Source: Pardosa pseudoannulata
Taxonomy: Eukaryota; Arthropoda; Arachnida; Araneae; Lycosidae
Assembly (NCBI GenBank): GCA_032207245.1
Contig: CM063504.1
Span: forward strand, 20,475,426 to 20,539,425
Direction of reading: 5' to 3'
DNA length: 64,000 nt
Shown: positions 1-61,889 of the stretch, one piece after another
How the letters are laid out: the number at the start of each line of letters is the position of its first letter
Position numbering within the stretch: the first letter of the stretch is position 1
The notes under the pieces: model-generated
What the model saw: only the letters and a program-made list of their open reading frames with translations
What the model was told of the DNA's origin: nothing
Databases searched by the model: none
Position numbers and translations under genes: made by a program

Positions 1-228
1 CTGTACAAGCATAAAGTGTGGCACCACAAATATGTATTTCCTAAATTTAAATATGTTTGTAATAATTGTCCATATGCTACAGATAACAAAACAAATTTTA
101 AGACTCATTTTGAGGTGCATGAACCAGATCGTCCGTACAAATGTGATGTTTGTGGCAATGGCTTCAAAAGACTTGCTAGTTTAAGCCATCACATGATCAT
201 TCATACTGGAGATGTGCCACTTATTTAA
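1..228 (+). CDS. Alternative terminal zinc-finger exon 1 (5' part cut by window edge)
   Basis: Frame 1 is open from the first base to a TAA at 226-228, giving 75 visible residues. The window begins inside the helix of finger 1 (LYKHKVWHHK). Finger 2 (C-x2-C-PYATDNKTNF-x2-H-x3-H) and finger 3 (CDVCGNGFKRLASLSHH...) are complete. The protein ends shortly after HTGD. The peptide is closest to the exon at 6965, sharing the DNKTNFK stretch and the GFKRL helix start, so the two form an old tandem pair. The finger 3 helix reads R-L-A-S-L-S-H from -1 to +6. A candidate polyadenylation signal AATAAA lies at 509-514. The splice acceptor is outside the window. By family knowledge this would be a DNA-binding C-terminus of a nuclear factor; the partner N-terminus is not visible. 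Confidence 0.88.
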   Translation: MYKHKVWHHKYVFPKFKYVCNNCPYATDNKTNFKTHFEVHEPDRPYKCDVCGNGFKRLASLSHHMIIHTGDVPLI

Positions 229-3200
229 TATGGATCACTAGATATTTGTAAGGCTTCTGAACTTTTAATTAATATTAGTGAGTGCTATTGACCCGTAAAG
301 TAAAACCTGTATAGCATAGTCTCATCTCATCTATTCTGGGATTGTTTTACATAAATTTTATATGTGAAAACTGCATTTAGTTTATTCTATTATACTATTC
401 TATTATAATATCTATTATACTATTAGAAATACTATCAGTAAAATCATGTATATTTGAAATTAGAAAATTGTAATGAATATTTTGAGGAATATTATAAAGA
501 ATGTACATAAATAAAAGGTTAAAATTAAAATGTATTTAAACTTTTCAATTTATGATTTACATTGTTTTCTAAATTTCATTTTCCTTTAATATACACAAAA
601 TAAATATTTTCTAGCAGCAAAATATTTTATCTTTTTTAAATTTCTTTTCACTTCATTATTATTAATCTGAGTATATTTGGTCCTTTATCTTCTTGCATTA
701 TGTTTATCGCAACTTTTTTAATCTTATATCCAAAATATTTTAAAGTTATCTTTCCTCCTTTGCTAAAAGTTACTAACATTTCAGACAGGTTTTGGTACCT
801 TCCTTTGCATGCCATAGTTCATATATTAGGTAATACATTGTTCCTGCCACTTACACCACCTTCAACCTGGAAGTAGTGGGATGACAGGAAATTCATTATT
901 ATCCAGTTTGGCTATTATAGGATTCAAAGAGTTTACTTATGCTCATGAATTAAATTAAAATAAATATTTATCCAACCTGATACTTTAATTTCCAACTAAC
1001 AATTATTTGTTTTTACTTTTAGAGCCTTTTTTCACTTTAAATTATTGGGTTATTGTAGTTTATAAAAATTTTATATATTTTCTTTCTCTCCATTTTATTC
1101 TATATATATATATATATATATATATACTGGCGTGATACTGGCATATACTGGCGTGATGGTAGGGAGGGAAAGGTTTTATTTTTTGGGTACATTAAATTTG
1201 CCCTTTTTTTTAGCTAAACAGTAGACTATAGTGTTCCAAACCAAATCAATTTTATGTGCATAAAACTTTTGTTAGCTTAGCATAGTGTTCTAAGAATTTT
1301 AGCTATGAATAAATAATGTAATTTTTTTGTGCAACTTTTTAATTTGACTTGATGAATATATATATATATATAATATATATATATATATATATAGAGGATT
1401 GATCTCATGTTAATTTTAGAAAATAGTGATAGTTTCAAATGCTGGAAAAATTATTGTTTTTACATTGTATTAAGCTTTAATGTGTTAAACTGAATGAATA
1501 CTATAAACTGTTTTCTTCTATAGTAAAACAAATATTAGTTATGCAATGCACATTCTTACTCCCAGGTCTTAACCCAAGTCTCAGATTTTTTGTTTAAGAA
1601 GCATTTTGTATTATTATTTACTTTAGAAAGATATGTTTCACTTGGTTATTGCTATATTTTGAAATAACTTATTATGAATATTATGATTTATGCAATATTT
1701 TACTTGTAATGAATAATTGCTAGTAACACATGTATTTTATTGCTTTTAATGTACTTAATTTTTTTTTTCTCAGTCTCTCGAGGAAAGACAACAAATATTG
1801 AATAATTTTTTTATTTTTAATGTTTTATTAGTCTTTTTTTCTCTATCTTTTAAATTGGAATATATATATATATATATATATATATATATATATATATATA
1901 ATAATTTGTTTATTCCATAGAAAACTTTTCATTAGTTGCTCTAGAAACATGCCTTTAAGCGAATTTGCAGTTACGAAATTCTACTCTGCTATATGTTAGA
2001 TGTTTTGGGGTTTAAATTGTTAATTTTGTCTCAGTAATTAATACATATGTATGTATGTTATATCATTGCAACAGATACTAGTGGCATAAAATGCCAATGC
2101 TTTCCTAAGTTTTAGTGGTCGTAAAATATTACCTGAAAATTAAAAGAAACTAATCCAAATTTGGTTTGCTGGGGGTAGACTCAGCAAAAATGTGGCAATT
2201 TGAGTTCTTACACACATCATTTTATTGATGCTAAAATTTTAAAAATAGACCAGTTCTGAAGCATCTGTTTGCCAGCTAATGTTGTTAGCTAGAAAACTGG
2301 TAGGAACTTTACTCTCTCAAAGGAGACAGACATGCATATTCTTAGATAGAATGCAAAGTTGCCATTTCTGTGGTTTGTTACGCAATGGACCACTAAGAAT
2401 TGCAAAATAAGCACTCAGGGTACGAATTGCACAATGAAATCCTGTGAGATCTGAAATGAGCAAACGAGTGAAAATTGCAAGTTAAGATTCTGCTGATGGT
2501 AAAATGGAAAAGATTGCAATGCTGAAGAGGTTCTTTTTTTTTTTTCTTTTTTTTTTTTTTATATAAAGAAATGAAATTTATTAGGAAAAATAATCTATAT
2601 GCATTTAGGTTGAATTTTTAATATTTGTAATATATTAAAAAATAAAGATATATATATATATATATATATATATATTACTTTTTAAAGTGCAAATTTCACA
2701 TCTTATGTTAGTGTAGTTTGATTGTGAATGTATTGAAAATTTAGATAATATTAAAATAATTATGATAAATATATCATTGTTTGTTTGGCTTGTTTGCATA
2801 TTTTTTTCCTCGATCCAAGGATATGCTCTTTGTTTCTTTTATTCCTTTCTTATCTTTCAAACAGCTACATTAGATTACTGGGAAACTGCAAATAACTGCT
2901 ATATTTTACTTTTTGTGTAATAACATGTTATTACGCAATTGACCATGACTGTGTGTGTGTATATACGTATGCATACACACACAATATGTATATATATATA
3001 TATATATATATATATATATATATACACACACACATATACCTTCTAAGGAAGTATATAAAACTAATATTTTAAATTTTTTATAAAGTAATTATTAAATAAA
3101 AGCCCTTTTTTCTGAGCTAAAAATAATAGGTGTACTTTTACTTTTTGTGTATGGATATATTCTTTCTAATTGCACATGACCAGTTAAAAATATCAATGTA

Positions 3201-59466: not shown

Positions 59467-61656
59467 TATGTCTGCTGATTCTGTTATAAAATTTTAGTTT
59501 TTAATTATATTATTGAATTATTTTAAATTTTCCTTTTAATACTAAATAATTGATGATAAATAAATGCATTCTTTGTTAAAAAAAATTAAATAAGTAAAAG
59601 TGTATTTATCTTAAAACCAATTTATAAAATTTATTTTTGCAGTTTGCATTTTTTTAAAAGGCATAATTTTTCATGCTTTAAAGCTGTTAACATTTTTCAA
59701 ATATATGTATTTATTAAAAATAATTCAATTTTTTAATCTTAAAATCCTAGTTCTTGAATTCCACTTTCATTCTGGAAATTTCAGTTGGGAAATAAATGTT
59801 ATATTGCTCTGATTAACAATAGTATTTAATACGGTATTTATTTAAAGAATTGTATAAATGCATTCTTGAAAACTGAAGCCTGAACTAAATGTAAAAGGAA
59901 TCTACAAATATTTGATGAAGAGGATTTTTTTTATTCAATATGCCTTTGTTTCTGCTATCAAATGAATGTTTGACAACTTTAAATGAAAAAGAATGATATT
60001 TAAATTACCATTTTTCATTTGTATAACATTAAATTTAACTCTTACTTTAAATAGTTAAGTTTCATCAAAATATCTTAGATTCAAGAAAGCAAAAATAATG
60101 CATAAAATTTATTTTCAAAGCAGTATAAGATGGATATATTAATTACTCAAAGCAAAATTTTTATTAGATTTTTTTTGAAAATATTATAATATTCACATTT
60201 TAAAAAAATTTACTTGTATACTTAAATTTGTTTTCCTCTTTAAAAAGAAAAGTTATTATATTTGTCAGTTTCTTCTGTATTTGATTGTTTATATATATAT
60301 ATATATATATATATATATATATATATATATATATATATATATATATATATATATATCCACTATTTTATCTTGAAAATTCATTTCATTTTTCTAATACATG
60401 GTTACATCATATAAGTTTTTAAATAATATCATTTAAATAATCAAGTTTTTTTTTTTAATTTGAAGATTAATTAGTTTCAATGCAAATTTTTTCTCAACCT
60501 TTCAATGTAGATAAATATCTAAATATTTGATATAAATGACTAGATGGAAGGTTTAATTTTAGGGTTTAAAGAAGCAATGCAAAAAAAATGAAACTATTGA
60601 TTATCATGCTGTAGTTATTAGTTAACTGGTTTTTCCCCTCTTTCAATTACAAATAAAATCCTGCAAGATTAGTTTTGTTGCAAAAACATCCAATAATAGC
60701 AAAATAAAGTTTAGTTTTTTTTATTATTATTTATTTAAAAAACATTTATTGTCATTCTAGCAAGTATAATGTAAATGTTGTCTTATATACCTACTTATCA
60801 AATGTTTGTCAAGTTTAAATTTTTGATGAATTAACTCTTTCTAAGATTTATTTTAAGAATTATTTTTTTTTAAGTATATTGACCTAGATTTAGAAATGAT
60901 CATATAATTATTATATTAATGATCATATAATTTATGTATTAGCTTTCATTTAAAATCTAACAGTCAGAAATACTGAAATTGTATTAAATGATGTATATAT
61001 TTTTTAAGTGTAATGCAAAAGAACAAAATGCTTAAGGGTAAAAAGTATTACAATGTGGTGACAGAACTGGGAAATCAGAAACATTGTGTAAATATAAAAA
61101 AAATCTGAAAAACTAATGAAAATAAGCTAAAATAAATGGAAATAGTACTTGGCAGGATATGAATATGAGTGTGATAGATGTTTTTGTAGTAAGAATAATT
61201 CCCTACCAAAGTGAACCAATGTAAAACTGCGATACTGGGTGACATTCACCACTATGAAAGGGTAAATGCATTTGAAAGCAGTTTGTGAAATTAGTTTAGT
61301 TTGGCATGTTCATAGCTCATATTTTACCTATTACCTACATAATTTGAAGGAGATTCTTTTAAGTTCTTACATTTTAAGATAACATATTATAAAGATGATA
61401 AAATAAATAAGATTTTATCAGTCAAGTGCCTTTTATATTTTGATTTAATTATGCTTGGAATGAATAAAGCTTTCCACCCTCTTGTAAAATTTTAAGAATT
61501 TATGACAGATTTCTAGAAATTTTATTTCTATCTGAAAACAAAATTGACCACCAGTCTATTCATGAAAGCTTTTTTCTTTCTTGTATGCATTCATCTATCC
61601 TTTCAATATTTCCATATGTTTTCATATTATCATTTTGAAAGTTACATAAATTTAAG
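59467..61656. other. Spacer before the short exon at 61.66 kb
   Basis: AT-rich with a (TA)n run at 60289-60357 and a local direct repeat of 'aatgatcatataatt' at about 60896-60932. No gene. No finger 1 remnant (WHHK region or CxxC) is visible in the 600 bases before 61657, only a pyrimidine-rich tract around 61570-61620. Confidence 0.6.
60289..60357. repeat. (TA)n microsatellite
   Basis: About 34 TA units, no function visible. Confidence 0.95.
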
Positions 61657-61889
61657 AAATCTTAAATTGTAAAGATTGTGCTTATGCTACAAATGAGCTG
61701 ACAAATTTCAGAAATCATGCTAATGTTCACGATCCTTCTCGTTTATTTTCATGTGATATTTGTGGTAACAGATTCAGAGCTCTAAATAGCTTGAATAATC
61801 ATATATTGATTCATAATGGGGAGAAAATACATAATTTTCGAGTTATAAATGAGGAATATCGATTTGAGATAAATCATCCTCTTATTTAA
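61657..61889 (+). CDS. Short zinc-finger exon 16 with only fingers 2 and 3
   Basis: An open frame runs from 61656 to a TAA at 61887-61889. It encodes ILNC, then finger 2 (CKDCAYATNELTNFRNH...VH), finger 3 (CDICGNRFRALNSLNNHILIH) and a 23-residue tail. Finger 1 is absent. AG at 61655-61656 would give the same phase (AA, then full codons) and is preceded at some distance by pyrimidine-rich DNA, so a working two-finger exon is possible. Alternatively it is a 5'-truncated relic that keeps its frame. Like exon 4 it has Ala where others have Pro after the second Cys of finger 2. The intact frame over 76 codons, including a long tail, argues against great age as a pseudogene. Confidence 0.65.

Follow-up and report, generated by a model that had tools for sequence, protein, structure and literature searches.

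Most tails of Drosophila lola carry a pair of C2H2 zinc fingers, and in the KRAB-ZNF clusters of mammals zinc-finger coding units have multiplied locally in tandem, each member being an entire gene with a long finger array and effector exons of its own. Here, we analyze a 64,000-base stretch of the Pardosa pseudoannulata genome (assembly GCA_032207245.1, contig CM063504.1, positions 20,475,426 to 20,539,425, forward strand; 25.6% guanine plus cytosine [GC]), hereafter the window, in which homologous three-finger C2H2 units span 62 kilobases (kb), and we compare it with these systems and with mod(mdg4). One study reports different C-terminal fingers in 17 of 20 lola isoforms (PMC11426971). For mod(mdg4), two further studies describe a set of about 30 alternative 3' exons that follow shared 5' exons, with related variable domains often encoded by tandem exon repeats; most of the variable exons carry a FLYWCH domain, and some are encoded by the opposite strand and joined by trans-splicing (PMC4667647, PMC12692577).

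The window resembles lola in its many putative alternative C2H2 3' exons, which in lola are joined to one 5' part and here are predicted from genome sequence. By sequence signals, the array shows the lola-type features, namely, homologous putative last exons on one strand, each with an acceptor and a stop, a common phase, and differing C2H2 tails. Compared with mod(mdg4), which is mostly FLYWCH and partly encoded on the opposite strand, all 18 units here are C2H2 and on the plus strand, and FLYWCH is not among the Pfam families listed when two cassettes were scanned (all 21 for one, 25 of 27 for the other); thus, we set a mod(mdg4)-type locus aside. Unlike the KRAB-ZNF clusters, the units are single terminal exons, mostly without starts. 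Among the titles and abstract openings listed in the literature searches, whose coverage mostly excluded subscription papers, none described a three-finger lola-like array. We only tentatively suggest, and would place on the improbable side, that this is a lola-like combinatorial locus whose origin is separate from that of insect lola. Its three-finger cassette would be distinctive (WHHK in a long linker between fingers 1 and 2, CPYAT/CPYGT in finger 2), one factor would have about 15 DNA specificities, and the host group, arthropod or other animal, would be one in which no such array has been described.

Cassette inventory and proposed gene structure

A six-frame motif scan together with tblastn of the cassettes against the window identified the 18 plus-strand units, in agreement with the first-pass annotation, while the minus strand gave only weak tblastn matches with expectation values (E) of 0.04 or more. 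Fourteen units are intact (U02 to U07 and U09 to U16), and their frames keep all 12 zinc ligands; the window edge truncates U01, and three further units are damaged (U08, U17, and a relic). The earlier estimate of at least 16 terminal exons is therefore too high for this window, where 14 intact exons and the edge-cut one stand. The placement of all units on a single strand has a p of 7.6e-6 and their common phase a p of 6.3e-7, both calculated under independence of the units, and duplicated copies inherit both properties. The elements of the array are as follows (window coordinates, strand).

1..228 (+): U01, begins inside finger 1 at the left window edge; fingers 2 and 3 intact
6965..7248 (+): U02, intact three-finger terminal exon, from acceptor to stop
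11520..11851 (+): U03, intact; possible phase-1 donor at 11787
13118..13401 (+): U04, intact
18628..18908 (+): U05, intact
21737..21948 (+): cassette relic resembling U10, interrupted by stops and a gap
22615..22937 (+): U06, intact
25127..25434 (+): U07, intact
29362..29628 (+): U08, degraded; finger 1 cysteine pair lost, no in-phase acceptor, higher dN/dS (ratio of nonsynonymous to synonymous substitution rates); donor-like GT at 29609
31937..32208 (+): U09, intact
34368..34684 (+): U10, intact
35390..35709 (+): U11, intact
37086..37387 (+): U12, intact; possible phase-1 donor at 37347
40802..41109 (+): U13, intact; possible phase-1 donor at 41063
44521..44792 (+): U14, intact
48995..49278 (+): U15, intact
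57724..57998 (+): U16, intact
61668..61889 (+): U17, fingers 2 and 3 only, finger 1 absent; weak in-phase AG just before 61657
36115..43539 (+): 3.7-kb tandem duplication, 94% identity, source of U12 and U13

It seems that these units are mutually exclusive 3'-terminal exons of one gene, spliced in a lola-like manner to a common 5' part located beyond the window, a reading to which we assign a probability of about 0.77. More narrowly, the sequence gives good support to an array of alternative terminal exons under constraint, 14 of them intact and one more cut by the edge. In the proposed mechanism, the window would be the 3' part of one transcription-factor gene, whose shared 5' part, probably encoding a BTB or other oligomerization domain, would lie upstream of base 1 and end with one base of a codon. 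Splicing would connect this part to any one of about 15 alternative last exons. Each of these would contribute three C2H2 fingers and a stop, presumably along with a poly(A) site of its own, so that each transcript would encode a factor with a common partner-binding end and a distinct DNA-binding tail; the array itself would have grown by local tandem duplication, some copies having been lost. If confirmed, a family of factors that share their partner-binding end and differ in about 15 DNA-binding tails would here come from one gene, through exon rather than gene duplication. Should it also prove distinct from the two fly loci studied in depth, the locus would reveal whether this design evolved more than once and would offer a fresh array for testing the rule of exon choice (in cis or in trans), with the broken copies as built-in controls.

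Exon anatomy, constraint, and diversification of the tails

Exon anatomy, common phase, constraint, and local duplication can be read from the sequence itself. In all 14 intact units, an AG opens the exon 8 to 20 nucleotides (nt) upstream of the first cysteine of finger 1 (Cys1), and two bases followed by whole codons define a phase-1 intron. Position and phase guided the choice of this AG; it is the sole AG within 60 nt in five intact units (U04, U09, U12, U13, and U14), and by a crude home-made score, its tract falls in the top 8.3% of 2837 AGs in 11 of the 14. A stop follows finger 3 after 5 to 23 codons (the stop counted) in every intact unit. As far as such signals go, the first-pass claim that each unit has its own acceptor and stop thus holds for the whole intact set. 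The companion claim, that the units have no start codon, stands for the nine intact units whose frame contains no ATG from the upstream stop to Cys1, but not for U04, U12, and U13, which have one within the exon 3 to 6 nt 5' of Cys1, or for U05 and U14, where it lies upstream of the acceptor. Among the damaged units, U17 has a candidate acceptor before 61657 that is in phase but has a poor tract (top 65%), and it may represent a two-finger last exon (61657 to 61889, plus strand).

The cassette has a recognizable layout. A long linker follows finger 1 and contains the previously noted WHHK motif, exact in 11 of the 14 intact units and varied to LHHK in U02 and WHHR in U09 and U14. Finger 2 begins with CPYAT in six units and CPYGT in six, as annotated, and with CPYST or CAYST in the remaining two; fingers 2 and 3 are joined by a seven-residue linker.

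Purifying selection on the intact units is clear from the coding sequence. The dN/dS was finite in 85 of 91 intact pairs, with a median of 0.28, and was below 1 in 84 of those 85; the exception was the recent pair U12/U13, which has six changes in all. For fingers 2 and 3 of U01 and U17, dN/dS was 0.13 to 0.38 against their nearest relatives with unsaturated dS. The broken U08 gave 0.64 against U13 and 0.78 against U12 over the whole core. In three older pairs, exon identity was 84 to 89%, compared with 55 to 71% in the 300-nt flanks. The protein distance of fingers 2 and 3 grows with physical distance among 17 units (Mantel r 0.41, p 0.0002); this correlation, the duplication that gave U12 and U13, and pieces of flank shared among units indicate local tandem growth with loss of copies.

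DNA contact was assessed at 12 positions (helix positions -1, 2, 3, and 6 of each finger). The mean entropy was 1.84 bits at these positions, compared with 1.25 bits at the remaining finger positions (p 0.028 in a one-sided permutation test). The 14 intact units have 13 distinct contact sets, U12 and U13 being identical. These data lend modest support to different DNA specificities among the tails. The 15 to 16 specificities proposed in the first-pass annotation are too many for the window, which holds these 13 sets plus that of the cut U01.

Weighing of the alternative explanations

Several observations weigh against a single gene with alternative last exons. Further AGs lie within 60 nt in nine of the 14 intact units, some of them in other phases, and three acceptors (U02, U10, and U15) are mediocre, reaching only the top 23 to 32% of the 2837 AGs. 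A phase-1 GT occurs at the same place after finger 3, following H-T-G, in U03, U08, U12, and U13. AATAAA is not closer to the stops than expected (median distance downstream of 17 stops, 304 nt; mean spacing, 372); because of the 25.6% GC content, poly(A) signals are uninformative here. A tblastn search with three BTB query sequences detected no BTB domain in the window (best E, 0.25) and recovered a planted control at 1.3e-49 and 8.6e-14. A doubtful 18-residue minus-strand match (E 9e-5) pairs sites at 28.2 and 40.0 kb, which precede U08 and U13, respectively. In fingers 2 and 3 alone, the dN/dS of U08 drops to 0.43 (against U13) and 0.64 (against U12), so that this unit is not a clean neutral control. 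Position 3 of the finger 1 helix shows no variation, and the contact positions exceed the rest of the fingers in variability only weakly. Pieces of flanking DNA, moreover, were duplicated together with some of the older units.

The last of these points would also be expected if the units were tandem separate genes of two or more exons, each with its own short 5' exon or exons and a promoter between units. Acceptors of intact units are 1.0 to 8.7 kb apart, which leaves room in most gaps, and no common 5' end was observed. Such genes would be expected to have their 5' exon duplicated with each unit. In a comparison of 805 non-cassette frames (both strands, 30 or more residues), however, recurrence was limited to four cases, including frames of the recent 3.7-kb U12/U13 duplication, a pair resembling a short interspersed nuclear element (SINE; 14.4 and 57.1 kb), and an overlapping inverted pair near 16 kb; outside that duplication, no companion frame recurred except for the doubtful U08/U13 match. 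The comparison took in frames of at least 30 residues, so shorter 5' exons would escape it, which also counts against our reading. The missing BTB speaks against separate genes as well, as do the mere 705 nt from the U10 stop to the U11 acceptor and the far lower conservation of the flanks than of the exons in older pairs. Selector or promoter motifs gave little guidance: no shared 9-mer (three or more G/C, in five or more unit groups) was found within 600 nt upstream or downstream of the exons, and none was found in three random controls either, indicating the low power of this test. On balance, we regard separate genes as unlikely.

The GT after finger 3 raises another explanation, that some cassettes are spliced in series into a longer polyzinc-finger mRNA whose stop comes from the last cassette used, since a phase-1 acceptor could follow this phase-1 donor. 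The four donor-like GTs (11787, 29609, 37347, and 41063) are in the top 1.2 to 2.8% of plus-strand GTs by a weighted donor score, so the first-pass statement that the units lack a donor needs correction for U03, U08, U12, and U13. In the other 13 of 17 units, the position reads GGA (12 units) or GGG (one unit), leaving no GT there; among the four GT units, U08 is degraded and U12 and U13 are recent duplicates, and a glycine codon GGT by itself accounts for the GT. We therefore consider serial splicing very unlikely. That the array consists mostly of dead pseudo-exons agrees with the damage seen in three of the 18 units, but 14 intact frames with complete zinc ligands and dN/dS below 1 in nearly all finite intact pairs make this hardly credible. 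Alternative terminal exons provide the best fit because of the common phase, the stops, the mostly missing starts, the lack of a companion frame apart from the doubtful match, and conservation that is higher in the exon than in the flanks; this much of the earlier proposal is retained, without its count of specificities. With no companion frame and no BTB in the window, we infer that the constant part lies upstream of base 1; its sharing among all units and the mutual exclusion of the last exons are further parts of the proposal.

Predicted fold of the cassette and other elements of the window

Pfam C2H2 matches were obtained on both cassettes scanned (two of the 14 intact units). In the PDB, ZNF568, PRDM9, and CTCF were best among the matches listed (60 of 200 and 60 of 261), which reflects generic C2H2 similarity only. 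In NCBIfam, a zinc-ribbon model matched three of 14 members, and a transposase model matched one. An AlphaFold2 model of U02, built from a 14-row alignment, contained three units of a short hairpin plus a helix, with a mean pLDDT (predicted local distance difference test) of 74 and a pTM (predicted template modeling score) of 0.44. No relatives of the cassette were found in bacterial or archaeal contigs (one cassette searched) or in viral contigs (one cassette, then the alignment), a result that is uninformative for animals.

Scans for transfer RNAs and Rfam families gave no match in the window, and Pfam searches of five other frames gave two weak matches, both below the cutoff. A mariner-type transposase frame at 58411 to 59256 (minus strand; Pfam HTH_48 and Transposase_1) adjoins U16; by eye, its 3' part seems to continue in the frame at 58262 to 58606, which has no Pfam match. 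Another mariner-like transposase, broken into several frames with stops, is seen by eye at about 5550 to 6450 (plus strand). The SINE-like sequences form an inverted pair, 14425 to 14620 (plus) and 56987 to 57185 (minus), 78% identical and tRNA-like by eye; a search of viral and prokaryote contigs with 28 bases of this repeat gave no match. A GC-richer frame at 7672 to 7929 (plus strand), with the sequence just 3' of it, resembles, by eye only, the RNase H stretch of a non-LTR (long terminal repeat) retrotransposon. Finally, a long TA/TG-rich repeat at 30541 to 31057 gives Tyr-Ile open frames on both strands.
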